Source: Vulcanococcus sp. (GTDB taxonomy: Bacteria > Cyanobacteriota > Cyanobacteriia > PCC-6307 > Cyanobiaceae). From it: DNA of 64,000 nucleotides. Below are positions 13,202 through 33,514 of this stretch, in pieces. Location of the stretch: the NCBI GenBank assembly GCA_019264575.1, contig JAHUZV010000020.1, positions 56,316 through 120,315 of the forward strand, written 5' to 3'. Each line of letters opens with the position of its first letter. The first letter of the stretch is position 1. Both the position numbers and the translations under genes were made by a program. The notes below the pieces were generated by a model that saw only the letters and a list, made by a program, of their open reading frames with translations, did not search any database and had not been told where the DNA came from.

Positions 13202-13209
13202 CGCGCAGC

Positions 13210-13359: not shown

Positions 13360-13499
13360 CGTAAGCCCTAAACACCCGAAACCTTCGTGGGCCCAGGGCC
13401 GCAGCGCGAGCCTGTTGGGGTTCGGGTCCCCGAAGGCGCTGACAGGATCCACGTCACGACCGCTCAATCTGTAAAATTTTGTAAAGACATGCCCCCGTT

Positions 13500-14390: not shown

Positions 14391-14441
14391 ATGAAGTAAC
14401 TCAAGCCAAAGACACATTTACGGCTCACTTGACGCTGGCTT

Positions 14442-14654
14442 TCAACACAAAGTTTGTACGCAGAACTCCTTGATTTCTTCGGAAAGAGCGACGTCAAAAA
14501 ACCAGTCTTGGCCACTTGGGCTTCTGCGGTTAACTTTCCAATGTCTAATCTCTGCGTCCTGAAGCGCGAGCATCAGTGCATCGCCGCTGCATCCCTCGCA
14601 TTCCACCTCCTGCGGGAGAAAGTCCTTGGCAGAGACCAGAAAGCGACGTTTCAT
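14442..14654 (-). CDS. Small protein, CSGDAL-NRRS family (copy 1)
   Basis: A 70-residue protein (MKRRFLVSAKDFLPQEVE...). The block GCSGDALMLALQDAEIRHW and VNRRSPSGQDWFFDV matches the small protein at 26162 (GCSGDALQFAFHE, VNRRSDDGLTWWFQ). Its start overlaps the stop of the upstream FYxRAK-PDPL gene by 4 bases, so the two form a coupled pair. No known family recognised. The regular beta-like pattern suggests a small alpha/beta fold. Confidence 0.6.
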   Translation of the reverse strand: MKRRFLVSAKDFLPQEVECEGCSGDALMLALQDAEIRHWKVNRRSPSGQDWFFDVALSEEIKEFCVQTLC

Positions 14655-14860
14655 CTGGGCAGTGTTTTGGAGGTTTTGAGCTGTTCGAATGGTTCTTGCA
14701 CTTCGTCTAATGTCGAGTCGTTGGAATCTCCCAGTGTGAGTGGGTCGGGATATCCCAAGGCGATCATTTTGGCACGCTCATAGAACTTGCTCTCGGTCTC
14801 CCCAGACGCTTCAAGTTCTGCTGCAAGCTTGCGCCAGTTGTTCAGCTCATCATGTTCCAT
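14651..14860 (-). CDS. Small protein, FYxRAK-PDPL family (copy 2)
   Basis: A 69-residue protein (MEHDELNNWRKLAAELEASGETESKFYERAKMIALG...). The first 40 residues match the protein at 13210; the rest is an acidic tail (DSNDSTLDEVQEPFEQL). Overlaps the downstream CSGDAL-type gene by 4 bases (ATGA-type coupling). Function unknown. Confidence 0.6.
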   Translation of the reverse strand: MEHDELNNWRKLAAELEASGETESKFYERAKMIALGYPDPLTLGDSNDSTLDEVQEPFEQLKTSKTLPR

Positions 14861-14987
14861 TGCGTCAGCCTAGCCAGCGTGACAGCGTGTTGAGTCGCTG
14901 AACCCTCGCCATGAACCTCTGGCGGAGCGGATCCGCAGCCATCCCGCTCAACTTGTCCAGGTCACTGCAGGAACCCCATAATTCAGC

Positions 14988-15905: not shown

Positions 15906-16507
15906 CGCGCCTTCAGGTCCTTGAGTCGCATCATCGCTGAAGTCAAGGTCTCCTTGACGTAGCTGTCCAAGCTCTCCTCATGGAGAAGTGCGTTGAATCC
16001 CGCTTCGACGGAGGGATCATTGATCTCGGCGAGGGCATTGATGGCCGCGACCCCTTGGGCTGGGTTGTCACCGCGGCTGACTTCAAGCAGTAAGGCGACT
16101 GCCTGTTCCCCCACCTGGCCGAGGGCCATCACAGACGCCACGGCAACGACGGGGGAGTCATCGCCGAGGCCGTCTCTCAGCACCGCCATCGCCCCCTCGC
16201 TGAACGGGAGTCCCGGGTAGTTCGAGGCCAGTTGTGCGTAGGCCTTCACACAGCTTGCGCGCACCGTGGCGTCGTCTGTTGTCCGAAAGCAATCAGCGAT
16301 CGGTTGCATGGCTGCCTCGCCGAAAGAGCCCAGGGCCCGCACTGAGGCCCGTCTCAAGCCGACGTTGGGTTGACTGAGTAAGGCAATCAGCCTGGGGGTT
16401 GCTTCCTCTTGCCAGTGCTCCGCCATGGCGGTGAAGGCTTGGGTCTGGATATAGGGATTCGGATGCTCTAGGTCTTCAAATAATTTGTCGAGTACCTGGT
16501 TGCTCAC
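15881..16507 (-). CDS. cpeZ: CpeZ, chaperone-like partner of CpeY
   Basis: A 208-residue HEAT-repeat protein. CpeZ assists CpeY in chromophorylation of CpeA and is thought to stabilise subunits. Seen: N-terminus LFEDLEHPNPYIQTQAFTAMAEHW and repeats such as LLSQPNVGLRRASVRALGSFGEAA and VVAVASVMALGQVG. It lies downstream of cpeBA on the same strand, beyond the terminator at 16597, so it may be expressed by readthrough or from its own promoter. It converges on cpeF with a 25-base overlap. Confidence 0.85.
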   Translation of the reverse strand: MSNQVLDKLFEDLEHPNPYIQTQAFTAMAEHWQEEATPRLIALLSQPNVGLRRASVRALGSFGEAAMQPIADCFRTTDDATVRASCVKAYAQLASNYPGLPFSEGAMAVLRDGLGDDSPVVAVASVMALGQVGEQAVALLLEVSRGDNPAQGVAAINALAEINDPSVEAGFNALLHEESLDSYVKETLTSAMMRLKDLKARQASSLLS

Positions 16508-16596
16508 GCCGATCTCCGGTGCCTTGCTCTGTTTCTGGCCACCTTAATCCTCGCTTTGTCGGCCTCGCTTTCTTCGCTCTTGATGTGCAAGAAAAC

Positions 16597-16622
16597 TAAA
16601 AAAGGAGGCCCGAAGGCCTCCT
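16597..16622 (-). terminator. Terminator after cpeBA
   Basis: Stem AGGAGGCC (16603-16610) and GGCCTCCT (16615-16622), loop CGAA (a stable tetraloop class), with an A-run at 16598-16603 giving U residues on the minus strand. It closes the cpeBA transcript 28 bases after the cpeA stop and separates it from cpeZ. Confidence 0.85.
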
Positions 16623-16649
16623 GCACTCAAGCTGATTTCGATGAAGAGA

Positions 16650-17186
<537 letters not shown>

Positions 17187-17201
17187 CTATCTCTTGTTGA
17201 T

Positions 17202-18157
<956 letters not shown>

Positions 18158-18367
18158 ATGGACGCAACCCCCCAGGACATACAAGAGTCCATCGAGCAGC
18201 TCGTGGCCTACCGCGATCGTTTGCGCCAGGACGTCATTGCCATGGGGCAAAAGCTGAAGCTGCCCCAAGCCAAGATCGACCGCACCCTGGCGGATCACCC
18301 GGAGCTCACTCGCCTGGAAGAGGTGCTGGGTCAGCTCCAGAGCCAGTTGTCCCAGCCCCAGGGTTGA
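18158..18367 (+). CDS. Small coiled-coil protein upstream of cpcS
   Basis: A 69-residue helical protein (MDATPQDIQESIEQLVAYRDRLRQDVIAMGQKLKLPQAK...). The Leu/Ile heptad spacing suggests a helical hairpin or short coiled coil. It ends 26 bases before the cpcS start and probably shares its transcript with cpcS, pebA and pebB. No named family recognised; context suggests a helper for bilin synthesis or attachment. Confidence 0.55.
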   Translation: MDATPQDIQESIEQLVAYRDRLRQDVIAMGQKLKLPQAKIDRTLADHPELTRLEEVLGQLQSQLSQPQG

Positions 18368-18393
18368 TCGTGGAGGCTTCGTTTATCGTCCCT

Positions 18394-19684
<1,291 letters not shown>

Positions 19685-19689
19685 ATCCG

Positions 19690-20487
19690 ATGTCTATTCC
19701 TGCGGCACCACGGGCGACCAGCCTTGACCCTGTTCAACTCCCCGATTGGCGTTGGCAGTGTTTTTTGGATGAAGCGGTTGCCGCTCTGCAACCGCTGGGC
19801 CCAGAGCCCTATCCCATTGATCCTCAGTTCCTCAGCCGTGAGGGGGTGACTGGATCCAAGGCGAAGCCAGTGCCTGTGGCGACAGCAACCTGGGCTTGCC
19901 AGACCGAGAAATTTCGCCAAGTCCGTGCCGCGTGTGTGTCTGCGGGGAGCGCTGCTTCGGTGCTCAACTTCGTTATCAATCCACGGACGTGCTACGACCT
20001 GCCGTTTTTTGGCGCCGATTTGGTCACCCTCCCCAATGGCCACTTGCTGGCCTTGGATCTTCAGCCGGTTGACCGGGGAGATCGCCTTCATACCGAAGCG
20101 GTTTGGCCGGAGCTCCTGACGATCTTTGAGCGGTGGAAGCAGGCCTTGCCTGACGGAGGCCCAATCCCCGAAGAAGCCCAGCCCTACTTCTCGCCGGGAT
20201 TCCTGTGGACGCGGATTCCCCTGGGGGCCGAGGGAGATGCCCTCATCGATGCAGTGATTCGTCCGGCCTTTCAGGAGTATCTCCAGATGTATCTCAAGCT
20301 GGAGGCTTCCGCGAGCCCAGTATCAGCGGAGCGATCAGAGCAGTTGCTGGCGGGCCAAAAGCGCTACACGCGCTACCGCGCTGAGAAGGATCCGGCCCGA
20401 GGCATGCTCAGCCGTTTCTACGGCTCGGAATGGACCGAGGCCTACATCCATGATGTTCTCTTCGATCTCGAGTCTCAGTCCGTTTAG
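19690..20487 (+). CDS. pebB: Phycoerythrobilin:ferredoxin oxidoreductase PebB
   Basis: A 265-residue ferredoxin-dependent bilin reductase converting dihydrobiliverdin to 3Z-phycoerythrobilin. Family marks: [58 protein letters not shown] and [28 protein letters not shown]. Start at ATG 19690; TTG 19681 lies upstream in frame. Its stop TAG is followed immediately by the edge of an IS-like sequence, so the insertion removed any native downstream region but spared the gene. Confidence 0.93.
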
Positions 20488-21716
20488 GAGTTCGCTGAAA
20501 ACCCACTGGCGTCTGCGAAATGGGTCATCTGCCCAGCTGAGATGGGAGGCCAGCGGGAGCGCAGCGGCTCCCTGTTCTCCTACGGCTCGATCGAGGAGCG
20601 GATCCCAGCCAGCCATCCGCTGCGGCGGATCCGGACACTGGCCGATCAGGCTCTCGACCGGCTCAATCCCACCTTCTGCGCGCTGTATGCCGCAGAAGGC
20701 CGGCCATCGGTGCCACCTGAGCAGCTGCTGCTGGCCTCGTTGCTGCAGGTGTTCTACGGGATCCGCTCGGAGCGGCTGCCGTTGGAGCAGCTCAACTACA
20801 ACCTGCTGTTTCGCTGGTTTGTGGGCCTGAGTCCGGATGACCCGATCTGGCATCCCACCACATATGGCCTCCGGCCGACTTCGTCTACACCAAGAACCGC
20901 GAGCGGCTCCTCAACGACCAGTTGATGGGTCGCTTTCTGGAGAAATTGATGGCCGCCCCAGAAGTCAAACCATTGCTCAGCGATGAGCACTTCTCAGTGG
21001 ATGGCACCTTGCTGCGCAGGCTTGGGCGTCCCATGCCTCGCTGGAGCGGATCGACGGAGAGGACGATCCACCACCTCCGCCGTCAGGCCCTGGTGAGGGT
21101 TTTGGAGCTGCAAAGCCGAGCAAGAAGCGAGCCAAAGGGGATTTCCGCGGCATCAAGCTCAGCAACAAGACCCATCGCTCCAGCACGGATCCCGATGCCT
21201 TACTGACCCGGAAATCCAATGCCCACCCAGCACTGCCCAGCTACCGGGGGCACGTGCTCATGGACAACCGCCATGCCCTGATTGTCGATTGCAAGGTGAC
21301 GCAGGCGGTGCAAACAAGAACTTCGACACCAGAGGCTTTGTCGCTGAGATGCGGCGGCTTGGCGTCACGCCGCACGTGGCGCAGAACACCACCCGCTCTG
21401 GTGGTTCCGCGATCGATGGGCGCACCACCCGCCAGGAGGGCTACACCAAGTCGATCAACGCTCGCCGCGGTATCGAGAAGGTGTTCGGCTGGATCAAACA
21501 GTGGGGTGGGCTGCGCCAGTTCAAGCTGCGCGGCACAGGCAAGGTGAGTGCAGTATTTGGCCTGCACGTGATCGCCTACCACCTGATTCGGCTGGGCAAC
21601 CTGCTCAAGCCGGCGATGGCAGCAGCATGATCAGCGGGTTGCCCAGAGGTGTGGCCAAGCAGCAGTAATCAGAGCGCCGCAAAGGGATAAAACGTCTGAA
21701 ATCGGGTGTTCCGAAC
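20488..21716 (+). mobile_element. Decayed IS5-type insertion sequence
   Basis: An element of about 1.2 kb bearing a broken transposase. It appears to begin immediately after the pebB stop codon. I do not find intact terminal inverted repeats, so the right boundary is approximate (near 21716). An 11-base direct match (CGCTGAAAACC) occurs at 20493 and at 21725. The element separates the rod cluster from hemH and marks a change in base composition. Confidence 0.6.
20542..21630 (+). pseudogene. IS5-family transposase, frameshifted
   Basis: The protein is readable in pieces across three frames. Segment 1 (20542-20875) has SIEERIPASHPLRRIR and LFRWFVGLSPDDPIWHP. Segment 2 (about 20880-21015) has FTKNRERLL-like sequence and LLSDEHFSVDGTLL. 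Segment 3 (about 21015-21300) has FRGIKLSNKTHRS and HVLMDNRHALIVDCKVTQA. Segment 4 (21300-21630) has TRGFVAEMRRLGVTPHVAQNT, RRGIEKVFGWIKQ and FGLHVIAYHLIRLGNLL. Frameshifts near 20875 and 21015 and an internal deletion near 21300 destroy it. The D-D-E region is therefore split and the enzyme cannot be active. Confidence 0.85.
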
Positions 21717-21769
21717 CGCTGAAACGCTGAAAACCAGCCCGAACAGAGCCTGATCAGCGCTCATGAGAG

Positions 21770-21796
21770 AAAAACGCGCCTCATCAGGCGTTTTTT
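21770..21796. terminator. Bidirectional terminator near hemH
   Basis: Stem CGCCT (21777-21781) and AGGCG (21786-21790), loop CATC, with an A-run before it and six T after it (21791-21796). It can act for leftward hemH transcripts and for any rightward transcript from the IS. Confidence 0.6.
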
Positions 21797-21806
21797 CCGC
21801 ACACTC

Positions 21807-22982
21807 TTAGAGCAATCCCAGGGAATGAAGCGGGCCACGGCCGCTGAGCAGCTCCAGCAGGAAAGCGGAGAAGCCGAGCATTGCCAAGCGACCGTTCCAC
21901 ACCTCGGAGCTGTTGTTCCAGCCCCAGGCCCACTTGTCCTGGGGGTAGAGCTTCACCTTGGTGGGCAATGCCGCCGCCTGATCCAGGTTCACCTCAGGCC
22001 CCTCAAGGGCGTGCTGCACCAGGTTGGCCAGGCCTTCGATGAAGGACGGCGTGGTGTCGAGGGCGGGCACGCGGCGGAAGTTGGTGATGCCGGATTCGGT
22101 GGCGATCTCCCGGTATTCGATGTCGATTTCTTCGAGCGTTTCGATGTGCTCGCTCACGAAGCTGATCGGCACCACCACCAAATCCTTCACCCCTTGTTCG
22201 CCGAGCTCATGGAGCGCGTCGTCGGTGTAGGGCTTGAGCCACTCCACGGGACCCACCCGGCTCTGGTAGGCCAGGGTGAACGGGTTGCGGTAGCCCAGCT
22301 GCTGCTCCAGCCGATCGATGATCAGGCCGGCACAGGCCTGGATCTCCTCTTGATAGGGATCGCCCGCCTCTTCCACGTAGCTCTTGGGCACCCCGTGGGC
22401 GCTGAAGAACACATGGGCGCTGGCCGGATCGGGGCAGGCCTGGATCTCCTTGGCGATCAGCTCGGCCATGGCGCCGATGTAGCCGGGATCGTTGTAGTAG
22501 CTGCGGATGCAGCGAATCGGCAGGCGAGCGAAGTTCGTGTCGGCCTGGCGCAGCCGCTGCAGTTCCCGGAAGCTCGAGCCGCTGGTGCTGATCGAGAAGT
22601 GGGGGTAGAGCGGCAACACCACCACCTCATCGATGCCGTCGGCCTTGATATCGGCCACCGCCGATTCGGTGAACGGGTGCCAGTAGCGCATCGCCACGTA
22701 GCTGGTGGCTTCGATGCCGCGCTGGCGCAGGGTGCTCTGTAGCTCGCGCGCCTGCTGCTCGGTGATCCGGCGCAGCGGTGAACCGCCGCCGATCGAGCGG
22801 TAAGCCGCCTGGGATTTACCGGCCCGCAGGGTGCTGATCAACCAGGCCAACGGCTTCTGCAGGGCCGGGTTGGGCAACCGGATGATCTCCGGATCCGCAA
22901 ACAGGTTGTAGAGGAACGGCCCCACGTCCTGAATGCGCTCAGGCCCGCCGAGGTTCAGCAACAGCACGCCGACCTTGGCCAT
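21807..22982 (-). CDS. hemH: Ferrochelatase with C-terminal CAB-like domain
   Basis: A 391-residue ferrochelatase, inserting Fe2+ into protoporphyrin IX to make heme. Motifs: [12 protein letters not shown] at the start, [36 protein letters not shown] (active-site His) and [16 protein letters not shown]. The last about 35 residues ([19 protein letters not shown]...) form the chlorophyll a/b-binding-like segment typical of cyanobacterial HemH. Sampled GC is about 70%, like the right part of the window and unlike pebB. It lies alone between the IS remnant and cpcBA. Heme is the substrate of Ho1 at 26413. Confidence 0.95.
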
Positions 22983-23247
22983 GACCTGTTCTATCCACTA
23001 ATGATGGGAAAGACCGTAAGGGGCGCGAGGCCGGTCAGTGGAAAAACCGCAGGGACCTCAAGAACTTGTCATCCCTTGCTGCCACTGGCTACTTGAATGG
23101 AACTGGTTAAAGATTATGAACGCCCTGACGGGTGCACACTGGGCTCTGGCGACAATCCCCCTGACGGGATGCGGTATGCCTCCCGGCAGACCCATCCGTA
23201 GTGTCTGCAGTCCCCATCCCTCAGACGAAGCCCAAAGGAGTTAACTC
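22983..23247 (+). promoter_or_regulatory. cpcBA leader/promoter region with repeated CCCTGACGGG
   Basis: A region of 265 bases between divergent hemH and cpcB. It carries two exact copies of CCCTGACGGG at 23123-23132 and 23159-23168, start-to-start spacing 36. Each copy has CCC/GGG arms and could form a small stem or bind a regulator. An AAAGGAG ribosome site lies a few bases before cpcB. Confidence 0.45.
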
Positions 23248-23766
23248 ATGTTCGACGCCTTCACCAAGGTTGTCGCCCAGGCTGATGCCCGGGGTCAATT
23301 CATCGGCGCTGGCGAGCTTGATGCTCTCGCCGCCATGGTTTCCGACAGCAACAAGCGTCTGGATGCGGTCAACCGCATCACCAGCAACGCTTCCACCATC
23401 GTGTCGGCCGCTGCTCGCCAGCTGTTCGCTCAGCAGCCCGCTCTGATTGCTCCTGGCGGCAATGCCTACACCTCCCGCCGCATGGCTGCTTGCCTGCGCG
23501 ACATGGAGATTATCCTTCGCTACGTCACCTACTCGATCTTCACTGGCGACGCTTCCGTGATGGAAGACCGCTGCCTGAATGGTCTGCGTGAGACCTACCT
23601 GGCCCTGGGCACCCCCGGCGCTTCCGTGTCCGCTGGCGTGAACCTGATGAAGGAAGCCGCCATCTCGATCGCCAATGCCAAGGCCGGCATCACCCAAGGT
23701 GATTGCACCGCCCTCATGAGCGAGATCGGCACCTACTTCGACCGTGCTGCTTCCGCTGTTGCCTGA
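23248..23766 (+). CDS. cpcB: Phycocyanin beta subunit
   Basis: A 172-residue phycocyanin beta subunit. The N-terminus [18 protein letters not shown] is classic CpcB. Bilin cysteines are Cys-82 (AACLRDMEI) and Cys-153 (TQGDCTAL). A strong ribosome-binding sequence precedes the ATG. First gene of cpcBA, 39 bases before cpcA. Cys-82 would be served by CpcS and Cys-153 by CpcT, both in this window. R-phycocyanin RpcB is the alternative, but neighbouring cpcE/cpcF and the lack of a fused RpcG favour C-phycocyanin. Confidence 0.95.
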
Positions 23767-23805
23767 TCCGGCACCAGTTCACGTCCACCCCTATTTTTCT
23801 CCGTC

Positions 23806-24294
23806 ATGAAGACGCCTCTCACCGAAGCCGTTTCCGCTGCTGATTCCCAGGGCCGTTTCCTGGGCAACACCGAAATCCAAGGCGCTTTCGGCCGTTTCAA
23901 CCGCGCCAAGGCTGGTCTCGAAGCCGCCAAGGCGCTGACCGCAAAGGCCGACACCCTGGTGAACGGCGCAGCCCAGGCTGTGTACTCCAAGTTCCCCTAC
24001 ACTACCCAAATGCAAGGTCCCGCCTACGCCGCCACGGAAGTAGGCAAGTCCAAGTGCTCGCGCGACATCGGTTACTACCTGCGCATGGTGACCTACTGCC
24101 TCGTGGCAGGCGGTACCGGCCCCATGGATGAATACCTGATTGCTGGTCTCGACGAGATCAACCGCACCTTCGAACTGTCCCCCTCCTGGTATGTCGAAGC
24201 TCTGAACTACATCAAGGCCAACCATGGTCTGAGCGGTGAGGCTGCCACCGAAGCCAACAACTACTTCGACTACGCCATCAACGCCCTGATCTGA
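23806..24294 (+). CDS. cpcA: Phycocyanin alpha subunit
   Basis: A 162-residue phycocyanin alpha subunit, standard length. The bilin site is Cys-84 ([14 protein letters not shown]). N-terminus [20 protein letters not shown] and C-terminus YFDYAINAL are diagnostic. Second gene of cpcBA. CpcE/CpcF encoded next door would attach phycocyanobilin at Cys-84. A strong terminator separates it from cpcE, so the two abundant structural subunits are made in excess of the lyase. Confidence 0.95.
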
Positions 24295-24314
24295 TCAGCG
24301 TACGATTGGCCTTC

Positions 24315-24345
24315 AAGACCCCCCAATCGGGGGGTCTTTCTTTTT
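24315..24345 (+). terminator. Strong terminator between cpcA and cpcE
   Basis: Perfect 10-bp stem AAGACCCCCC (24315-24324) and GGGGGGTCTT (24329-24338), loop AATC, followed by TCTTTTT. It lies 20 bases after cpcA. Partial readthrough would give low cpcEF expression. Confidence 0.9.
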
Positions 24346-24367
24346 GTCTTGCGTTTCAGAGCGGGTT

Positions 24368-25195
24368 ATGTCGGCTCCCTCCTCCACAACCATTGAGATG
24401 GCTGACCCCATCGATGAAGCGGAGGCTTTGCGGCGGTTGAGGGCGACCGATGACCCCTCTGCTCAGTACTACGCCGCCTGGTGGTTGGGTCGTCATCGCA
24501 GTCAGCATCCAGACACGCTCCCGTTGTTGCTGGCTGCCATGCGTCAGCGGCGGGCGCGCCAGCTCGGTGATGGCGTGGAGGAGAACGCCGTCGCCCGCAA
24601 CGCCACCCGTGCCGTGGGAAAGTTGGGCCCGTCCGCGAGTGAGGCAATTCCAGTTCTCCTTGAATTACTGGATGACCCTGATTACGGCTTGAGGGAAGCT
24701 GCCGCCCGCTCCCTTGGTGAACTGAAGGCCACGGTGGCGCTACCGGCCCTAGTTGCTCGACTGAGATCGGGCCCGAACGTGGCCGGGGCCCGGGCCTCCG
24801 ATTCGGCCAATTTGGTCGAGCCCTGTGAGGCTCTCCTGGAAGCCATCGGTGATCTGGGGCCCTCAGATGAGGAGGTTATAGGAGTTCTGGAGTCGTTCTT
24901 GGCTCATGAGCGTCCTGTCGTTCAATGTTCGGCGTGCCGATCACTGCTTCAACTCACCCAAGAGCCCCGCTGGGGTGAGCGACTGAAGACCCTGTTGTTG
25001 CATCCCCAGTTGCAGGTCAGGCGCGCTGCATTGATGGACCTCGGAGCGACGGGTTGGCGTCCCGCGGCTCAGGCGATTGCTGCCACCCTGGCTGAAAACA
25101 GCCTCAAACTCATTGCCTTAAGGGGGTTGGTTGAGTCGGCTCCGAGTGACGGTCTTGATGAGGAGATTTTCGACGTGATGGATGGGTTGCTCTAG
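24368..25195 (+). CDS. cpcE: Phycocyanin alpha-subunit bilin lyase, E subunit
   Basis: A 275-residue HEAT-repeat (E/F type) lyase subunit. Typical marks: DEAEALRRLRATDDPSAQYYAAWWLGRHRS, AVARNATRAVGKLG and LLELLDDPDYGLREAAARSLGEL. With CpcF it forms the heterodimer that attaches phycocyanobilin to Cys-84 of CpcA. The start at ATG 24368 avoids the upstream terminator tail. It abuts cpcF with no gap (TAG then ATG). RpcE is the close alternative if the alpha subunit carried phycoerythrobilin. Confidence 0.88.
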   Translation: MSAPSSTTIEMADPIDEAEALRRLRATDDPSAQYYAAWWLGRHRSQHPDTLPLLLAAMRQRRARQLGDGVEENAVARNATRAVGKLGPSASEAIPVLLELLDDPDYGLREAAARSLGELKATVALPALVARLRSGPNVAGARASDSANLVEPCEALLEAIGDLGPSDEEVIGVLESFLAHERPVVQCSACRSLLQLTQEPRWGERLKTLLLHPQLQVRRAALMDLGATGWRPAAQAIAATLAENSLKLIALRGLVESAPSDGLDEEIFDVMDGLL

Positions 25196-25882
25196 ATGGT
25201 GCCTGACGACATGAACTCCCAAACCTCCGTTGAACAACGGATTGCCAATGTGCAATCGGCTGATTCTGCGGAGGCTCTCTTAAGTGCCGTTGAGCACTTG
25301 GCTGCAGCGAAGCATCCCTCGGCAACAGCCTGTTTGTTGGAAATCCTTGGTTTCAACAATCCAGGTGCGGCAGTAGCAGCGGTTGATGGTCTGATTGCTA
25401 TTGGAGAACCTGCTGTGGAGCCGATTCTTGCTTCGCTGGGTACTAACAACTATGGCGCTCGGGCATGGTCGGTTCGTGCCCTCGCCGGGATTGCTGATCC
25501 CCGTGGTCTTGAGGTGCTCGAGCGGGCCTTGGCGACGGATATTGGACCTTCCGTTCGGCGCGCTGCGGCGTCTGGCCTCGGACGCCTTGATCTGAGATCC
25601 CTGCCTGACGAGCAGGCCTCGGGCTTGGTCGAGAGGTGCTTGCAGGCGTTGCTATTGGCCTGTGGGGACGGAGAATGGATCGTTCGCTATGCCGTCGTTG
25701 TCGGTCTAGAAGGGTTGGCGCTGAAGCAAGCCGAACGGATTTCGGTCCTGAGCTTTGAAGCCCTCAGACATGCGCTGGCTGGCCTGGCCGCTGGATCGGA
25801 TCCGCTCACGCCTGTCGTGGTTCAAAGGCGTTCAGCCTTGGCTCTGCATCGCATTGATCACTCTGGAGGTCCCCATGGCTGA
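25196..25882 (+). CDS. cpcF: Phycocyanin alpha-subunit bilin lyase, F subunit
   Basis: A 228-residue partner of CpcE. HEAT-like units: AVEHLAAAKHPSATACLLEILGFNNPGAAVAAVDGLIAIGEPAVEPI and GARAWSVRALAGIADPRGLEVLE. It starts directly after the cpcE stop. Its own stop overlaps the ATG of a broken phosphatase gene (bases 25875-25882), an arrangement that suggests the phosphatase once belonged to this operon. Confidence 0.88.
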   Translation: MVPDDMNSQTSVEQRIANVQSADSAEALLSAVEHLAAAKHPSATACLLEILGFNNPGAAVAAVDGLIAIGEPAVEPILASLGTNNYGARAWSVRALAGIADPRGLEVLERALATDIGPSVRRAAASGLGRLDLRSLPDEQASGLVERCLQALLLACGDGEWIVRYAVVVGLEGLALKQAERISVLSFEALRHALAGLAAGSDPLTPVVVQRRSALALHRIDHSGGPHG

Positions 25883-26097
25883 ACAACGAATGCTTTTTAT
25901 CTGCCTCGGCAACATTTGCCGCTCTCCGGCCGCTGAAGGGGGCTTTCTGCACCTGATCCGCCCAAGCCGGACTGGAGGACCGCTTTGTGGTCTACAGCGC
26001 CGGCACTGGCGGCTGGCATGTGGGCAACCTCGCCGATCGGCAGATGCGGGCTGCTGCCCAGCGCCGTGGCATCCAGATGCCGATCCTCGCTCGCCAT
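25875..26097 (+). pseudogene. Truncated low-molecular-weight protein tyrosine phosphatase
   Basis: The first 28 codons read MAEQRMLFICLGNICRSPAAEGGFLHLI, the active-site loop of LMW phosphatases. The frame then breaks near 25960. The next segment continues in another frame as GLEDRFVVYSAGTGGWHVGN and RQMRAAAQRRGIQ. Similarity stops near 26097, so the C-terminal catalytic Asp region is lost. The intact copy at 27342 is very similar along the same stretch. This is a dead duplicate, in the position where cpcF ends. Confidence 0.85.
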
Positions 26098-26161
26098 CCT
26101 TGCCATCGTCCATTGCCATCTGCGGCCCATCCCTATCTACGGCATCGAAACCTCGGGTCTG

Positions 26162-26338
26162 ATGACCCTGGTGCAGCGTTCTACAGGCTGCAGCGGCGAT
26201 GCATTGCAATTCGCCTTCCACGAGCGGGGGGTGTCCAGCTTCCAGGTGAATCGGCGCAGCGACGATGGACTCACCTGGTGGTTTCAGGCCACGTTTAAAG
26301 TTGGTGTGCTCGACCCAATGGCAACTGCAGAGCGGTGA
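26162..26338 (+). CDS. Small protein, CSGDAL-NRRS family (copy 2), possibly a remnant
   Basis: A 58-residue frame from ATG 26162 (MTLVQRSTGCSGDALQFAFHE...). The block GCSGDAL...VNRRSDDGLTWWFQ matches the gene at 14442. The homologous N-terminus is only partly covered, so the true start may be upstream or the gene may be truncated. It directly follows the phosphatase pseudogene. Function unknown. Confidence 0.5.
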   Translation: MTLVQRSTGCSGDALQFAFHERGVSSFQVNRRSDDGLTWWFQATFKVGVLDPMATAER

Positions 26339-26412
26339 CCCAGCGGGTCAAGGTGACCCGCCTCGAGGACTGACTCTGGGCTTGAAGCGGCTTGTTGTTC
26401 CGCCGCTCAGCC

Positions 26413-27132
26413 TCAGGCGGCCACCGCCTCCGTGCTGCCGGCGCGCTGGCGGCGCGTGAGGAAGCCAAACAGCACCTTCCCGATGGCGGCGATCAGATTG
26501 CCTTCCAGCTCTTGGAACATCTTCATGTTGAGGTGAAAGGCGTGGTTCGCTTCCTCCACGATCCGATCGGCCATGGACTGATCGATCGGCAGGCTGTCGA
26601 GGGTGGCGCGGTAGTTGGTTTTGAAGCTCTTCTCGTTAGGAATGGCGTCGAACTCGTAAAAGCGCAGGCCATCGTGCTCGCCGAGGCCCATGGCTTTCTG
26701 AGCGATGTTCTTGAGGATCTGGCCACCGGAGAGATCGCCGATGTAGCGGGTGTAGTGGTGCCCTACCAGTAGCTCAGGGGCCTCCTGCGCCAACTGGTGA
26801 AGACGGGCCACGTACGCCTGGGCGGCGGGCGTGGGCCTCACGGCTTGGCGCCAGTTGTCACCGAAGTAATAGGAGAGATCCTGCTCCAGGCTGTCGCGGC
26901 GGTTGAGTTCCGGGAAGCCCACGGGGCCCACCACAGGGTGGCCTGTGGCCCTAAGGCGCCCAATCTCCTCTTCCATGGCGGAGTAAACGAAGAAGAGGTC
27001 GGCCACCAGGGTGCGGTAGCTGGCCTTGTCCACAACCCCTTTGAGGAAACAGCTGACGAAGCCAGTGTTTTCGGCCATGGTGTGGGCCTTCTTGGTGCCC
27101 TCACGCAGCTGCAGAGCCAGGTTGGCGGACAT
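26413..27132 (-). CDS. ho1: Heme oxygenase
   Basis: A 239-residue heme oxygenase, splitting heme to biliverdin IXalpha, the substrate of PebA. Motifs: LALQLREGTKKAHTMAENTGF (proximal His), VADLFFVYSAMEEE, HHYTRYIGDLSGGQILK (distal helix) and NHAFHLNMKMFQELE. The start ATG 27132 matches known Ho1 length (about 238); the upstream extension in the frame is not family-like. It is divergent from the intact phosphatase gene. Confidence 0.95.
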   Translation of the reverse strand: MSANLALQLREGTKKAHTMAENTGFVSCFLKGVVDKASYRTLVADLFFVYSAMEEEIGRLRATGHPVVGPVGFPELNRRDSLEQDLSYYFGDNWRQAVRPTPAAQAYVARLHQLAQEAPELLVGHHYTRYIGDLSGGQILKNIAQKAMGLGEHDGLRFYEFDAIPNEKSFKTNYRATLDSLPIDQSMADRIVEEANHAFHLNMKMFQELEGNLIAAIGKVLFGFLTRRQRAGSTEAVAA

Positions 27133-27341
27133 GGGTTCTGATCCAAGGGGGCGGCAATCTCCACAAGCTAAGGGCTGCCTCCTCGTTTGGAAGAGGCCCG
27201 TTGCGAACCATTGCTGGCCCCGCGCTTCAACCCTGTCGAGTGCGGAGGCCGGCAGCAACCTGGACCTGGGGCGTGCCTGGAGTTAACTTGCCGCTGGCGT
27301 TGCTTTAGGGCTCCTGTTGCCTCAGCGACTAGGGGTTGGCT

Positions 27342-27839
27342 ATGGCCTTGCAGCACGTGTTGTTTGTTTGCCTGGGCAATATCTGCCGCTCACCAGCGGC
27401 GGAGGGGGTGTTTCTGCACCTGATCGCTCGCGAGGGCCTGGAGGATCAGTTTGTGGTGGATAGCGCTGGCACCGGCGGATGGCATGTGGGCAACCCAGCG
27501 GATCGCCGCATGCGAGCGGCCGCTGAGCGACGCGGCATTCATCTGCCCAGCCGCGCCCGTCAGATCGAGCTGGCTGATTTCACAAGCTTCGATCGCATCC
27601 TCACCATGGATGACGACAACCTCCGCAACGTGAAGGCCCTAGGGCGTGAGCTCGGCAACCGCCCGGGGCTGGCTCGGGTTGAACCGATGACCAGCTACTG
27701 CCGCCAGCACAGCGCCACGCACGTTCCCGATCCCTATTACGGCGGCGAGCAGGGCTTTGAACACGTGCTCGATCTGCTCGACGATGCCTGTGCCGGCCTG
27801 CTCGAAAGCCTGCTTCAGGACAGCGGCCGGCGCCTTTAA
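27342..27839 (+). CDS. Low-molecular-weight protein tyrosine phosphatase
   Basis: A 165-residue LMW-PTP. The catalytic loop C-L-G-N-I-C-R-S is at residues 10-17 (CX5R). The C-terminal acid region VPDPYYGG supplies the general-acid Asp. It is complete, in contrast to the broken copy at 25875. It may regulate polysaccharide export or photosystem proteins as in other bacteria, but targets are not known from sequence. The 3' end overlaps the opposing panC-cmk by 4 bases. Confidence 0.9.
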   Translation: MALQHVLFVCLGNICRSPAAEGVFLHLIAREGLEDQFVVDSAGTGGWHVGNPADRRMRAAAERRGIHLPSRARQIELADFTSFDRILTMDDDNLRNVKALGRELGNRPGLARVEPMTSYCRQHSATHVPDPYYGGEQGFEHVLDLLDDACAGLLESLLQDSGRRL

Positions 27840-29392
27840 GACCCCGGCTCCGGCCAGGCATCGTGGGGAACGCGCTCGCGGAAGAGCTGCACCAGCTGAT
27901 CAATCACCGCCTCGATGCTCAGGCCATCGGTGATCAGCTCCACCGCATCAGCGGCCTGGGTGAGCGGGGCCACGTCACGGGTGGAATCGAGGTGGTCGCG
28001 CTCGGCGATCTGGGCCTCCAGCTCCTGCAGGGCCGGCACAGGGAATCCCCGTTGCTCCAGATCCAGGGCCCGCCGCCGGGCCCGCTCCGCCGTGGTGGCG
28101 GTGAGAAACACCTTGAGCTCGGCGTCCGGAAACACAGCGGTGCCAATGTCGCGGCCTTCCGCCACCAAGCCGCCGCGCTCGCCCATGGCCTGCTGCTGGC
28201 GGGTGAGGGCTTCGCGCACACAGCCGTGGGCAGCCACCACCGACACCTGCGCCGTCACCTCCGGTGAGCGGATCGCCTCGGTCACATCGTGGCCGTTCAC
28301 CAACACCCGCTGGCTGCCGGCGGCGGCGGTGCTCAGCTGCAGGTCGAGGTCTTGCAAGAGCGGCGCTACGGCGGCGGCATCGGCGGCATCCACGCCGCTC
28401 TGCTGCACCAGCCAGGTAACGCCCCGATACATGGCGCCGGTGTCGAGATAGATCAGCCCCAGCCGCTCGGCAAAGGCGCGGGTCACGGTGCTTTTGCCGG
28501 CGCCGGCAGGGCCATCGATGGCAACGATCGGGGCTCGACTCATCAGAAACACGTGATCGATCAGGCGGCTGGGGCCGCAGTGGGCGGCGGCGGCCAGCAA
28601 GGTGAGGCCCGTGAGTGCGCTGCGGGGCTGCAGGCTGCGCGGACATACCGCTTCTACATAGTCGAGCACCAGGCCGGCTCGCTCCAGTGCTTGCCGCACC
28701 TGCAGCAGCGTGGGTGCCAAATCGCTGCCCGGGGGGAGGGGTGTGGCGGCAGCGGCTTGCAGGGCTTGCGGCAGGGCTGCAGCCTGCCGGCGCTGCTCAG
28801 CGCTGAGGTAGCTGTTGCGCGAGCTGAGGGCTAGCCCATCGGGCTCACGCAGGGTGGGGCATCCCACCACCTGCACCGGCAAGCCCAGATCCGCCGCCAT
28901 CCGCTGCAGGATCACCAGCTGTTGCCAGTCTTTCTCGCCCAGCAGCAGCTGATCCGGGCGGACCAGGCCCAAGAGCCGAGCCACCACAGTGGCCACACCA
29001 TTGAAGTGACCAGGCCGGTGGCGCCCGCACAGGCCCGCCTGCAGGGATTGCGGTGGTTGGATCCGGGTGAGCTCGCCTTCGCCGGCGGGATAGAGCTCTT
29101 CCACGCTTGGGGCAAAGAGCGCATCGGCGCCAGCGGCTTCGGCCAGCTCGGCATCACGCTCGAGCTGGCGGGGGTAGCGGCCGAAATCCTCGTTGGCTCC
29201 GAATTGCAGCGGGTTCACGAACACGCTCACCAGCACCTGCGGCCGCACCCCCGCCTGCCGCCTGCCGGCTCGAGCGATCAGGCTCTGATGCCCCGGGTGC
29301 AGGGCGCCCATGGTGGGCACGAAATGCAGGGGAGCCTCACCGCAGCTGCGGCGCCAGGCCTCCAGATCGGTGCAGCGGCGCAGCAGGCGCAC
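27836..29392 (-). CDS. panC/cmk: Bifunctional pantoate-beta-alanine ligase/cytidylate kinase
   Basis: A 518-residue fusion typical of cyanobacteria. N-terminal about 280 residues are pantothenate synthetase (FVPTMGALHPGHQSLIARA, VFVNPLQFGANEDFGRYPR, GEKDWQQLVILQRM). C-terminal about 225 residues are CMP kinase (IVAIDGPAGAGKSTVTRAFA P-loop, YLDTGAMYRGVTWL, VAEGRDIGTAVFPDAELKVFLTA). The first makes pantothenate for coenzyme A; the second phosphorylates CMP/dCMP. Ends tail to tail with the phosphatase gene. Confidence 0.95.
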   Translation of the reverse strand: MRLLRRCTDLEAWRRSCGEAPLHFVPTMGALHPGHQSLIARAGRRQAGVRPQVLVSVFVNPLQFGANEDFGRYPRQLERDAELAEAAGADALFAPSVEELYPAGEGELTRIQPPQSLQAGLCGRHRPGHFNGVATVVARLLGLVRPDQLLLGEKDWQQLVILQRMAADLGLPVQVVGCPTLREPDGLALSSRNSYLSAEQRRQAAALPQALQAAAATPLPPGSDLAPTLLQVRQALERAGLVLDYVEAVCPRSLQPRSALTGLTLLAAAAHCGPSRLIDHVFLMSRAPIVAIDGPAGAGKSTVTRAFAERLGLIYLDTGAMYRGVTWLVQQSGVDAADAAAVAPLLQDLDLQLSTAAAGSQRVLVNGHDVTEAIRSPEVTAQVSVVAAHGCVREALTRQQQAMGERGGLVAEGRDIGTAVFPDAELKVFLTATTAERARRRALDLEQRGFPVPALQELEAQIAERDHLDSTRDVAPLTQAADAVELITDGLSIEAVIDQLVQLFRERVPHDAWPEPGS

Positions 29393-29427
29393 GGGCTCTT
29401 GCAGCTTGGTGCGACCCTACCGGGCCA

Positions 29428-29461
29428 GCAAAAAGCCCACCGGCCGAAGGGCCAGTGGGCT
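29428..29461 (-). terminator. Terminator after rlpA
   Basis: Outer stem AGCCCAC (29434-29440) and GTGGGCT (29455-29461) with an inner CGGCC/GGCC-type pairing. An A-run at 29430-29434 reads as U on the minus strand. It follows rlpA and precedes panC-cmk. Confidence 0.75.
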
Positions 29462-29483
29462 CACAAGGCTGCAGTAACCCCGA

Positions 29484-30017
29484 TCAGGGCTGGAGCACTT
29501 CCAACTTCACGTTGGCGATTCCGCTGGAGATCAGGCCAAGGTTGTTGGCTGCGCCGTGGGCCAGGTCGATCACGCGGTTGCCGTGGAAGGGGCCGCGATC
29601 ATTGATCCGCACGATGGCGCTGCGGCCGTTGCCCATGTTGGTTACGCGCACCTTGGTTCCGAAGGGAAGGGTGCGGTGGGCGGCGGTGAGGGTGCCCGGG
29701 CGGAGCACTTCACCACTGGCGGTGCGGTTCCCAAAAAACCCGGGGCCGTACCAACTGGCCTGGCCCTGGCTCACCGACTTCACCCGTGGCTGCTGCGGAG
29801 GGGTGGCGATGGGGAGCGCGGGCGCGGCAGGTTTGATCTGAAGCTCGTCTGAAGGATCGGCCGACTCGAGGCTGGGATCCACGCTGCGGATCGCCAGTTC
29901 AAGCGAAGGGTTGCTGGTTTCGGCAGCAACGCGGCCGGTGGTGGCGAAGGCCGGGGGAAGACCTGTGCTGCCGGAGAGCAACAGGGCGGAGCCACCAAGG
30001 AGACAGAAGCGACGCAT
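29484..30017 (-). CDS. rlpA: RlpA-like double-psi beta-barrel protein
   Basis: A 177-residue exported protein. Signal peptide at residues 1-26 (MRRFCLLGGSALLLSGSTGLPPAFA). Residues about 88-177 are the RlpA/DPBB domain: GQASWYGPGFFGNRTASGE, LTAAHRTLPFGTKVRVTN, NGRSAIVRINDRGPF and RVIDLAHGAANNLGLI. The Asp of NDRGP matches the catalytic position of RlpA lytic transglycosylases. It may act on peptidoglycan in the periplasm. Single gene with its own terminator. Confidence 0.88.
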   Translation of the reverse strand: MRRFCLLGGSALLLSGSTGLPPAFATTGRVAAETSNPSLELAIRSVDPSLESADPSDELQIKPAAPALPIATPPQQPRVKSVSQGQASWYGPGFFGNRTASGEVLRPGTLTAAHRTLPFGTKVRVTNMGNGRSAIVRINDRGPFHGNRVIDLAHGAANNLGLISSGIANVKLEVLQP

Positions 30018-30432
30018 AACAAGCGAAACTCGCCGCGATCAACGCAGCAGCCACTGAAAAAGGTGTGGCCCATCAGCCTCAAGAGCGGATTTCAGATAGA
30101 GGCGATCGCAATGTGCGAGGCATTTCTGAACCGATGTGCTGACGGAGTTCCTATCGGGAATTGACGACGACGCAAAGTTACTGGCAGTGCGTGGTGGATT
30201 TGGTCTGCAATTGCGAGCGTTTGATTGATCAGCATTTGCGATCAAATCCCGAATTGAGGGCCATCGCAGGGATCTGATGGGTTGGCAAGGGGGTGCTTTG
30301 ATCACGGCCGCTGATCGCCTGGATAAGCGGGGCTGATTGAACGGTGTGCCAATCCCGCAGGCGGTTGTGGATTTGCTGGTGGCGGCGCCCCCTGGCGGGG
30401 CAGGATCAAGGAACCCGTGAGTGGTTGCTGGG
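30018..30432. other. Intergenic region before purM, no gene seen
   Basis: A region of about 415 bases between divergent rlpA and purM. It is less GC-rich than its neighbours and contains one GCGATCGC octamer (30102-30109). A minus frame at 30039-30305 exists but has no recognisable protein character. Likely holds the two promoters. Confidence 0.5.
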
Positions 30433-31467
30433 ATGGACTACCGCACAGCTGGCGTTGATGTGGAGGCCGGGCGTGCCTTCGTGGAGCGCATTCGCTCGAG
30501 TGTGGAGTCCACGCGCCGGCCCGAGGTGCTGGGCGGTTTGGGTGGTTTTGGCGGGCTTTGTCGCTTGCCCCAGGGCATGCGCAAACCCTTGTTGGTGTCA
30601 GGCACCGATGGCGTGGGTACCAAGCTCGAGCTGGCTCAGGCCCATGGGCGCCATCACGGCGTGGGCATCGATCTGGTGGCGATGTGCGTGAACGACGTGA
30701 TCACCAGTGGTGCCCAGCCCCTGTTTTTTCTCGATTACATCGCCACCGGCAAGCTCACCCCGGAGGCGATGGCCGAGGTGGTGGAAGGCATTGCCGATGG
30801 CTGCCGCCAGAGCGGTTGTGCGCTGTTGGGCGGTGAAACCGCCGAGATGCCCGGCTTCTACGGCCCCGGCCGTTACGACCTGGCGGGGTTCTGTGTGGCT
30901 GTGGTGGAAGAAGACGAGCTGATCGACCCGGCGCGGGTGCAGGCGGGTGATCGCATCGTGGCCGTGGCCAGCAGCGGTGTGCACAGCAACGGCTTCAGCC
31001 TGGTGCGCCGCATCCTGGAGATGCGCGGCGTCACCCCCGAAACCAGCCTCACGCCGGGTGGCCCGGCTGTGCTTGATGCCTTGCTGGCGCCCACTGTTCT
31101 GTATGCGTCGCTGGTGCAGGCACTACTGGCTGCCGAGGTGGAGCTGCATGGCATGGCCCACATCACCGGTGGTGGTCTGCCGGAAAACCTGCCTCGGGCA
31201 CTGCCGGAAGGTCTGCACGCCCGCCTGGATCCAGGCAGCTGGGAGCGCCCGGCCCTGTTCCGTTGGCTGCAGGAGAACGGTGAGGTGCCGGAGGCCGATC
31301 TCTGGAACACCTTCAACCTTGGAGTGGGTTTCTGCCTGGTGGTGCCGGAGCGGGCTGTGGATGCGGCCCTGCAGGTGTGTGCCAGGCAGGGGCACCAGGC
31401 CTGGCTGCTCGGCCAGGTGGAACCCGGATCGGCAGGATCCGCGCCCCTGGCTGGATTGCCGTACTGA
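30433..31467 (+). CDS. purM: Phosphoribosylformylglycinamidine cyclo-ligase
   Basis: A 344-residue PurM (AIR synthetase), forming aminoimidazole ribonucleotide in purine synthesis. Motifs: [80 protein letters not shown], and [13 protein letters not shown]. The start ATG 30433 gives the conserved MDYRxAGVD N-terminus; GTG 30421 would add 4 residues. Single gene on this strand, with a separate downstream unit. Confidence 0.96.
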
Positions 31468-31638
31468 TCGGGCCGCCTTGGCTGCCAAATTGCATCAGCC
31501 TGGCGCTTGAGCCCGGTGAAACCGCTCCAGGCCGTTAGGGTCTGGGCACTGCGGCGCGGCGTTGATCACGCCCGCGCCGAGCCTGATTGTTCGGCAACGC
31601 AGAACACAGCGCATAGGTCTGTTCTTTATAGGTTTGAG

Positions 31639-32316
31639 ATGTCGTTAAACGGCTCGCTTTTAAACGCCTCCAGCCGCGTCACCCGTCGGCGCAGCTCCGC
31701 TGGTCCGATTCCCCCGAACCGCCCGCTGCGCCCCCGCGACGCTTACCCCAGCCGCAGCAGCGTTCGCCCCACCTTCCTCACCCTGCGCGATCACGGCAAG
31801 GTGTTTGTGGCGGATCTGCCCCGCCTCTCCGATGGCCAGCTGGCTCACGTGGGCAAGGAAGCCCGGGAAGTGCTCGAGAGCATCAGCCGCCGGCTTGAGG
31901 AGCTCGATCAGCAGCTCCAGCTCTCGCCCCAGGAGCAGGAAACCCGCATCCGCGCCGCCACCAAGCGTGATGTCACCGAGCGGTTCATCCGCGCCGTGGA
32001 AGAGGAGCAAGAGCAGCGCCGCACCAACCCTGCCCTGAAGGCAGCCGCTGGTGAATCCCTGGCTCGGGCCTTCCTGGAGATCGCCCGCCACCGTTTGCCC
32101 GGTGCCACCTTTGATTCCCTGCTGCAGGAGGCGCTCACCGCCTGTGATGAGGGCCCTGCCGCTCCGGAAGCGCCAGCAGCACCGGCGGTGCTGGAAGCCC
32201 CTCGCCCCAGGCTTATCTCGTTGAGCCGGCCGGCGGAGAGCGCCGAGGCCCCCGAGCGCGAGCGCATGCCGGTGGTGCTGACCCCCGATCCTTCGCCCCT
32301 GATGGGTCAGGCCTGA
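31639..32316 (+). CDS. Hypothetical protein, cyanobacterial
   Basis: A 225-residue protein. N-terminus MSLNGSLLNASSRVTRRR is basic and Ser-rich. The middle (HGKVFVADLPRLSDGQLAHVGKEAREVLESISRRLEELDQQL) is probably helical, with coiled-coil tendency, and the C-terminus is Ala/Pro-rich and likely disordered. An in-frame codon at 31507 exists but ATG 31639 gives a better N-terminus. I do not recognise its function. The following aldo/keto reductase is on the opposite strand and ends at the next base. Confidence 0.6.
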   Translation: MSLNGSLLNASSRVTRRRSSAGPIPPNRPLRPRDAYPSRSSVRPTFLTLRDHGKVFVADLPRLSDGQLAHVGKEAREVLESISRRLEELDQQLQLSPQEQETRIRAATKRDVTERFIRAVEEEQEQRRTNPALKAAAGESLARAFLEIARHRLPGATFDSLLQEALTACDEGPAAPEAPAAPAVLEAPRPRLISLSRPAESAEAPERERMPVVLTPDPSPLMGQA

Positions 32317-33306
32317 TCAGGCGCTCTGGAAGGGATTGGCCGGCATTCTCGGAGCGCCGGCGAATCCCACCAACTGATCAAGGCTGCCGCGTTCGTCGCC
32401 GCTGAGCTGCCAGCTGAGGGCAGCGGCCGTGGCATTCACCTGCTCGCAGCTGCGCAAGCCCGGGATGGGCATGGCGCCGTGGGCGCGGCACCAGTTGAGG
32501 GCAACGGCAGCTAGTCCACCCGGCCTGCCCGCACTGATCTCCGCCATCTGCTGGCGCAGGGTTTGCACCTTGGGCTCCAGCTGCTGGAACAACCGCCGGC
32601 GGGTGCCGGTGAGTGGCCGGGCGCCAGCTTTGCTTTGGCCGTTGCTGCGGCTGAGCAGGCCGAGGGCCAGCGGGCTGTAGGCGATCAGCTCGATGTTGAG
32701 CTCGCGGCACACCTCCGCCACCCCGCCCGCAAGCACTGGTTGTGGCGCCAGCAGGGAGAGCTGCACCTGCAGGCTGCGCAAGGGAACGCCCTGATCGGCC
32801 AAGCGCTGGTGCAGCTGCCGCAGCCGCTGGGGCCCCACGTTCGATACCCCCAGGCTCTCCACGGCTCTGCTGCGCACAAGATCCGCCAGCCCATCGAGCA
32901 GCGGCCCTTCCTGCCAAGGGGCGTAGCGAGCGGTGCTCCAGTGCAGCTGTACCCGGCGTAGTTGCCCCTGCAGCCGCTCTTGAGAAGCGGCGAAGGCGCG
33001 GCGGTAGCCCTGGCGCCCTAGCCGCCAGGGGAAGGGGGCCAATTTGGTGGCGATGCAGAGCTGGGCCCGCTCTTCGGCTGGTGCTGCCATGGCAAAACGG
33101 CCGAGCAGAGCCTCACTGCGCCCGTTGAGCCGGCCGGTGCCGTAGGAATCTGCCGTGTCGAAAAAGTGCAGCCCCTGCTCCAGGCAGCGGCGGAAGGTGG
33201 CGGCTAAGGCCTCGTCGTCGCGCTCTGGCTCGTAGCCCCACAGGAATTGGTTCCCCCAGGCCCAGGTGCCCACCCCGATCCCAGGTTGCTGGCTGCTGCT
33301 TGCCAT
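32317..33306 (-). CDS. Aldo/keto reductase
   Basis: A 329-residue member of the aldo/keto reductase superfamily (TIM barrel, NADPH). Motifs: IGVGTWAWGNQ, EQGLHFFDTADSYGTGRLNGRSEALLG (catalytic Asp and Tyr), IATKLAPFPWRLG (catalytic Lys), ESLGVSNVG and LIAYSPLALGLLS. Start at ATG 33306; the longer frame to 33360 is less likely. It shares its 5' end region with the divergent small gene at 33305, overlapping by 2 bases. Substrate unknown. Confidence 0.88.
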   Translation of the reverse strand: MASSSQQPGIGVGTWAWGNQFLWGYEPERDDEALAATFRRCLEQGLHFFDTADSYGTGRLNGRSEALLGRFAMAAPAEERAQLCIATKLAPFPWRLGRQGYRRAFAASQERLQGQLRRVQLHWSTARYAPWQEGPLLDGLADLVRSRAVESLGVSNVGPQRLRQLHQRLADQGVPLRSLQVQLSLLAPQPVLAGGVAEVCRELNIELIAYSPLALGLLSRSNGQSKAGARPLTGTRRRLFQQLEPKVQTLRQQMAEISAGRPGGLAAVALNWCRAHGAMPIPGLRSCEQVNATAAALSWQLSGDERGSLDQLVGFAGAPRMPANPFQSA

Positions 33307-33514
33307 GATCGAGCCAATCGGGGCCAACTCTGTGGTGAATTCTCTGCCCAGCTCAGCCATCGCCGCCGCCGACCTTCAGCCGCCATGCGCTGCCGAGCCA
33401 CCCCAGGAGACCAGCGAGGCGCCGCCTGATCCTGTGCTGTGTGGCCACTGCGGCCGCACCGCCAGCAATGGGCTGGTGTGCATCGGCATGTGCGTGGCCG
33501 ATTCCGGATACTGA
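33305..33514 (+). CDS. Small Cys-rich hypothetical protein
   Basis: A 69-residue protein starting at ATG 33305. The C-terminal block is CGHCGRTASNGLVCIGMCVADSGY. Its C-x2-C...C-x3-C spacing suggests a zinc-binding or redox-active knuckle. I recall similar short proteins in picocyanobacteria but no assigned role. It overlaps the next gene in a TGATG arrangement, which indicates coupling. Confidence 0.6.
   Translation: MIEPIGANSVVNSLPSSAIAAADLQPPCAAEPPQETSEAPPDPVLCGHCGRTASNGLVCIGMCVADSGY

Follow-up and report, generated by a model that had tools for sequence, protein, structure and literature searches.

The right end of the phycobilisome rod cluster in this Vulcanococcus genome carries a recombination scar, and we put at roughly 85% the probability that it was left when a resident rod locus had its interior exchanged for a phycoerythrin cassette of about 26 kb. 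The analyzed stretch of 64,000 nucleotides (the window, C11:56316–120315) belongs to a 27-contig draft of 2.67 Mb (completeness 99.99, contamination 0.29). Three ancestries meet there within 4 kb: cpcF and a severed phosphatase gene (ptp′) close to genome G017, a heme oxygenase piece (ho1) close to G007, and a right flank close to G013, G009, G002, and G016. A preliminary description, made from the sequence alone, had read the duplicated phosphatase as a scar between a rod-gene cluster and a resident locus. The scar is borne out by the trees given below, with the amendment that three ancestries are present rather than two, a piece from a third source lying between the copies.

The phosphatase gene as border of the rod cluster

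The genus set comprised 25 genomes; ptp was found in 20 and cpcF in 20, the genome under study (G000) being included both times. The other 19 genomes provided 20 cpcF/ptp loci, G013 contributing two. At 19 of these 20 loci cpcF and ptp overlapped or lay at most 120 bp apart by match ends, G007 being the exception. A wider search returned 76 related loci, of which 36 were mapped (L068–L103), 34 of them cyanobacterial by title; the 40 left unmapped are mostly titled as other bacteria and also include L105 (Synechococcus sp. UW140). The mapped loci and the genus genomes are partly the same records, so the two counts overlap. At all 34 mapped cyanobacterial loci panC/cmk followed ptp on the opposite strand, and at 30 of them the cpcF match ended less than 200 bp ahead of ptp. 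The four exceptions were L074 and L075 (no cpcF match), L085 (the same locus as G007), and L097 (Prochlorococcus, with pebB in that place). The proximity of cpcF at 19 of 20 loci, together with panC/cmk at 34 of 34, identifies ptp as the right border of the phycobilisome rod cluster.

A cpeA match of at least 91% was obtained in eight of the 25 genus genomes, including the one under study, and none in G002, G009, G013, and G016; for G013 this absence is a weak point, because that genome is only 68% complete. The comparison with strains lacking phycoerythrin that had been suggested at the outset was informative: strains without cpeA keep cpcF directly ahead of ptp. Across Cyanobiaceae, 131 of 151 genomes gave a ptp match (E 1e-5), and besides the genome under study only G047 gave a second one, which was distant (37%). 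In the 68% complete G013, full-length ptp occurs twice, on separate contigs, and either copy is accompanied by a cpcF and a panC/cmk of its own. In the genus search, a ptp fragment beside a second ptp copy was found in no genome except the one under study. Given this single-copy cpcF–ptp border elsewhere, a second ptp copy calls for a special reason.

The severed copy and the seam

The broken copy (25875..26096, plus strand) is a 222-bp 5′ piece of the border gene that belonged to the incoming cluster, a gene for a low-molecular-weight tyrosine phosphatase. Its ATG at 25875 overlaps the cpcF stop codon (25880–25882) by eight bases, and over its whole length it aligns to the intact gene at 27342 with a score of 206, the best of 200 shuffles reaching 45; both the overlap and the intact partner had been noted in the preliminary description. 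The Pfam family LMWPc matches the fragment in two separate frames (E 3e-5 and 0.003). There is one inserted base near 25958, the C-terminal half is absent, and of the PF01451 catalytic domain only about the first 74 codons remain, frameshifted. The fragment is a pseudogene, cut at the seam. Compared with the ptp gene of G017 it shows, besides the inserted base, 43 substitutions, of which 31 fall on third codon positions, so most of the divergence accrued before the gene lost its function, in the donor line. Of the 36 bases preceding it, 32 are identical to the end of G017 cpcF.

The resemblance of the two copies through the first half of the gene was correctly seen (25875–26096), and the gradual decay said to follow it was not found: ptp homology ends at about 26096, beyond which, from about 26101 on, the sequence matches the ho1 flank of G007. 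We place the seam at 26085..26105, between the end of ptp′ homology (L058, 26096) and the start of homology to the following piece (L064, 26077 or 26101 depending on the alignment). About ten similar bases, judged by eye, are common to both sources at this point. The 23-base seam sequence had no occurrence in viral contigs.

DNA between the copies and the right flank

The preliminary description had missed a complete heme oxygenase gene between the two phosphatase copies (ho1, 26413..27132, minus strand, Pfam E 4e-82). It is the second ho1 of the genome, the other lying at G000:C14:126058-126768. Ahead of it is a fragment lacking its start and related to the small rod-cluster ORF unk70 (unk70′, 26147..26338, plus strand), with 83% nucleotide identity to the ho1 flank of G007; it also gave short matches (39–53 bp, E 7e-5 to 0.003) to the unk70 stretch of L059 and L099. 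In the ho1 tree the gene groups with G007 (100/100), where the same kind of ho1 adjoins ptp and cpcF is on a separate contig. The order unk70–cpcG–ho1 occurs in G005, G013a, and G022; the first two continue with cpcBA–EF–ptp, and in G022 the contig runs out early in cpcB. From gene order, the ho1–ptp end seen here looks like such a right end minus cpcG and cpcBA–EF. It could have arisen by loss of these genes in place or as a piece from a G007-like strain, and the nearer kinship to G007 favors the latter. Because the ho1 piece is closer to G007 than to the sister genome G013a, plain inheritance from the resident is improbable, a point that counts against the scar reading.

Among cluster-linked ho1 genes, two pairs (L164/L175 and L176/L177) were almost the same in sequence: that of G022 and G001, and that formed by the two copies in G013, whose panC/cmk differ strongly. 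Both pairs look as if recently exchanged or, for G013, mixed in binning.

The intact, resident ptp (27342..27839, plus strand) contains the full PF01451 (LMWPc) domain (139.8 bits, profile positions 1–144 of 144, E 1e-40). A CX5R loop and a DPYY stretch are visible in its sequence, which we take to be the phosphatase motifs. Its nucleotide identity is 84–85% to G023, G013a, and G009 and 79% to G017. It lies 1.5 kb from the severed copy and differs from it at 26% of nucleotides over the fragment. The bases just ahead of it (27318..27341, plus strand) are a possible 3′ tail of a lost cpcF, as judged by base sharing with cpcF ends: 36 bases before intact ptp share 17–20 positions with seven members of the resident clade, 20 with G007, and 12 with G017. 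By position-specific score (PWM) the candidate ranked 160 of 127934, and 3913 of 127934 when the last 12 columns were left out. Since G007 fits these bases as well as the clade does, the tail cannot tell a resident source from G007, and its use as proof of a resident cpcF was downgraded accordingly. The resident right flank (27836..33360, both strands) holds panC/cmk (minus), rlpA (minus), purM (plus), and two further genes, with 90–98% amino acid identity to G013a and G009.

Conflicting ancestries of cluster and flanks

Trees of both phosphatase copies had been proposed as a check, and they gave a firm answer for one of the two. The severed copy groups with G003 and G017 (98/94), apart from the intact copy, which stands nearest to G023, G013a, G016, G009, and G002 without firm branch support. 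The copies are not each other's nearest kin in the best tree: ptp′ is nearer to 16 other loci than to the intact copy, and the intact copy is nearer to several others. Forcing both into one clade gave an AU p value of 0.058 on 222 bp only, so that sisterhood is nearly but not formally rejected.

The cpcF of the cassette (25196..25882, plus strand) has 83% amino acid identity to that of G017 and at most 62% to the other genus matches; its tree places it with G017 (100/98), and a constraint putting it in the resident clade was rejected (AU 9e-91). panC/cmk, on the right flank, falls next to G013a (99/99), within a clade of G002, G016, G009, and G013a (100/96), and both its placement with G017 (AU 4e-7) and that with the G017 clade (AU 0.001) were rejected. 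The cluster and its flanks thus have conflicting trees, as a transferred cluster should.

The same pattern was seen when 500-bp tiles were scanned against fetched stretches of 20 genomes, not every one of which spans both flanks. On the left, G002 was nearest from −9.0 kb (the start of the G002 stretch) to about −2.3 kb, followed by about 2.1 kb without a match. A G017-like run then extended from about −0.16 to 26.1 kb, interrupted by a matchless part (10.5–14.9 kb), by pebAB (closest to G008), by a transposase, and by hemH (closest to G007 in that set). From 26.1 to 27.2 kb G007 was nearest, and from there to about 33 kb, the end of the fetched stretches, it was G013, G009, or G023. The GC content changes as had been reported, from 0.59 in the cluster to 0.67 on its right. 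We rejected this change as evidence of transfer, for the rod clusters of G017, G008, and the phycoerythrin-free G002 show a dip as well.

Content of the proposed incoming cassette

The first 26 kb of the window form a phycobilisome rod cluster with phycoerythrin genes. The cassette (1..26096, with its left end at about window position −158) runs from cpcT through cpeBA, pebAB, hemH, cpcBA, and cpcEF to ptp′. Its gene order is the same in G017, most genes having 77–98% amino acid identity. By tile, the nucleotide identity to G017 is 72–96%, which is roughly species-level divergence; the actual donor is therefore unsampled, and this counts against the scar reading. So does the mosaic nature of the cassette itself, apparent from pebAB, which is nearer to G008, and from hemH, which is nearer to the host clade.

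The arrangement has the features of the type II pigment clusters of Larsson et al. (2014) (PMC4139726), namely cpeBA, hemH directly after pebAB, cpcBA–EF at the ptp end, and a heme oxygenase gene (hmuO/ho1) downstream of cpcEF. A broken transposase (20542..21630, plus strand, DUF772/DDE pieces) is now interposed between pebB and hemH in this otherwise type II order. The hemH gene (21807..22982, minus strand) is a second ferrochelatase, of host-clade type within a mainly G017-type cassette; the chromosomal copy lies at G000:C18:109409-110578. Within a strain, cluster and chromosomal hemH are 99.5% identical in G017 and 100% in G008. The cluster hemH of the genome under study is 91.5% identical to its own chromosomal copy, 91.9% to the chromosomal copy of G002, and 83.2% to the cluster copy of G017. 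These identities would most simply be accounted for if a host hemH copy had overwritten that of the cassette, in a manner resembling gene conversion between the two ferrochelatase copies.

Between cpeY/unk141 and cpeZ–mpeV the cassette holds an insert of 4.4 kb (10450..14950) that is absent from the G017 cluster. The block, observed in the window and at L227:1241-5861, is made up of small genes without known function, a membrane protein that by eye is VTT/SNARE-like, and an epimerase. DNA 68–72% alike occurs at another place in G017 and, in G008, some 11 kb past the left end of the rod cluster; an 86% piece was found in G011. The G008 block carries its own copy of unk141. This gene could have been the entry point of the insert.

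In the type IIB clusters of G001 (L221, L045) and G022 (L222–L224), a phycoerythrin cassette apparently is nested between the halves of a type I operon, an order pieced together from separate contigs.

Relics of an older cluster

Left of the window (L065), outside the view of the preliminary description, lie remains of a resident-type cluster that extend the scar reading. They comprise a cpcT without stops, a cpcG, and a coil gene, with 88, 91, and 92% nucleotide identity, respectively, to G002. The cpcG relic has two single-base deletions relative to G002 and is frameshifted. At about L065:13.7 kb, ahead of cpcC, the match to G002 stops. Past the relics is a broken IS256-type (Transposase_mut) gene with two in-frame stops; it was searched as three pieces, and no further copy was found in the genome, short weak matches aside. 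The start of the cassette was placed by eye at L065:15842, some 120 bp ahead of its own cpcT. In this comparison G002 alone stood for the clade, the left ends of G009, G013, G016, and G023 not being covered.

Another remnant lies on a different contig, where an orphan cpcB (C13:67750-68265) has no neighboring cpcA (L154) and shares 99% amino acid and 93–94% nucleotide identity with the orphans of G013, G002, and G016. By comparison, G017 and G008 (both complete), G015 (86% complete), and G007 (84% complete) show a single cpcB, in the cluster. By position, similar lone cpcB genes also occur in G002, G003, and G014, those of G003 and G014 scoring equal to the cluster copies. An orphan cpcB is not exclusive to strains without phycoerythrin, since G001, G018, and G022 combine cpeA with at least two cpcB genes. 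Relics of the resident cluster, as a replacement should leave, are thus present on the left side and in the orphan cpcB.

Proposed history and alternative explanations

We infer the following order of events. The ancestor, a type I or IIB strain, would have had a rod locus of the clade type with cpcF–ptp at its right border. A type II cassette, its ends lying about 120 bp ahead of cpcT and, past cpcF, 222 bp inside its own ptp, would then have arrived from a lineage related to G017 and displaced the interior of the resident locus, its ptp being severed at the seam. The cut gene would have been joined, probably by illegitimate recombination over the ten or so similar bases, to the G007-type unk70′–ho1 piece, which either already stood ahead of the resident ptp or came with the joint. 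The resident ptp would have been left intact and presumably does the job. The broken transposase on the left may have had a part in the joining. As vehicles, phages and plasmids were considered and rejected: cpcF had no match in 50,697 phage records and, as far as close relatives go, none among viral contigs, and cpeB matched five plasmid records, none of them picocyanobacterial.

Copying of ptp in place, with decay of one copy, would accord with the 1.5-kb spacing and with a sisterhood that the AU test (p 0.058) leaves standing. We nevertheless regard such a duplication as highly improbable, because the copies differ by 26% and are each nearer to other loci, because the sequence just ahead of the broken copy agrees with the end of G017 cpcF in 32 of 36 bases, against 12 of 36 for the intact one, and because the linked cpcF rejects the resident clade. 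Equally hard to credit is a chimeric assembly of two co-cultured strains. The draft consists of 27 contigs and read coverage is not visible, which leaves room for it; the completeness and contamination values speak against it, as do the frameshifted cut ptp, the decayed cpcG, and the broken transposase, none of which is expected in a fresh chimera. Moreover, Larsson et al. (2014) described other type II clusters in which hmuO likewise follows cpcEF and a 4.4-kb stretch of hypothetical genes separates cpeY from mpeV (PMC4139726).

A slightly better case, still an improbable one, can be made for a native phycoerythrin cluster that was lost in the sister strains, with the type I relics added later. 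The distance between cassette and G017 is about that between species, and Sanchez-Baracaldo et al. (2019) argue that strain CB0205 kept its cpeBA genes (PMC6363710). A native border gene should, however, group with the host clade, and ptp′ groups with G003 and G017. Resident-type genes stand left of the cassette within a host-type flank, the right flank is of host type too, and a host-clade-type orphan cpcB lies elsewhere in the genome. Replacement of the interior of a resident locus by the cassette remains the preferred reading. A more general scheme strikes us as conceivable and rather doubtful: pigment clusters would take shape as rod cassettes are nested and swapped again and again between borders that stay fixed, with second copies of hemH, ho1, and ptp carried in the cassettes serving as homology for exchange and later being overwritten by the host version, and the doubled ptp and the type IIB clusters would be arrested steps.

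Comparison with known pigment clusters

Transfer of whole rod clusters is already known and has been argued from trees at least since 2007. In marine Synechococcus, Six et al. (2007) gave ptp as the conserved 3′ end of the rod region, proposed lateral transfer of rod genes between lineages, and noted that RS9917 and WH5701, which lack phycoerythrin, carry an additional cpcB outside it (PMC2246261). The genome under study resembles that system in its ptp border, its probable transfer of rod genes, and its extra cpcB, and differs in the doubled border gene and the seam, which the passages of that paper on the rod region do not describe. Among the literature matches listed (titles and abstract openings), none concerned a doubled phosphatase or a seam with a cut border gene.

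For type II and IIB clusters of subcluster 5.2, Larsson et al. (2014) described hemH after pebAB, hmuO downstream of cpcEF, and, between cpeY and mpeV, 4.4 kb of hypothetical genes like those of CB0205, a block that they found in no other strain; 97% nucleotide identity of this block to CB0205 is a further mark of the type (PMC4139726). The positions of hemH, hmuO, and the block are common to those clusters and to the genome under study. We claim no kinship to CB0205, only shared features of type II clusters. If the block in the window is the same as that of Larsson et al., related DNA (68–72%) does occur in G017 and G008.

The type of rod cluster sets the light color that a picocyanobacterium can use, and the literature is split over the phycoerythrin of brackish type II strains, held to be either retained or lost and later regained. 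Larsson et al. (2014) favored re-acquisition, arguing from trees, GC content, transposases, and a doubled cpcGII (PMC4139726); the word phosphatase is absent from their main text. Sanchez-Baracaldo et al. (2019) concluded that CB0205 most likely kept its phycoerythrin genes (PMC6363710). The joint bears on this dispute, and relics of older clusters, scored in more strains, can settle it case by case, beyond tree shape alone. Further parallels are the whole-cluster replacements in RCC307 and WH7805 reported by Sanchez-Baracaldo et al. (2019) (PMC6363710), where likewise one pigment cluster took the place of another. There the replacement was inferred from trees; what is new here is that the joint itself can be read, with the donor border gene cut, the resident one kept, and resident-type genes left behind.
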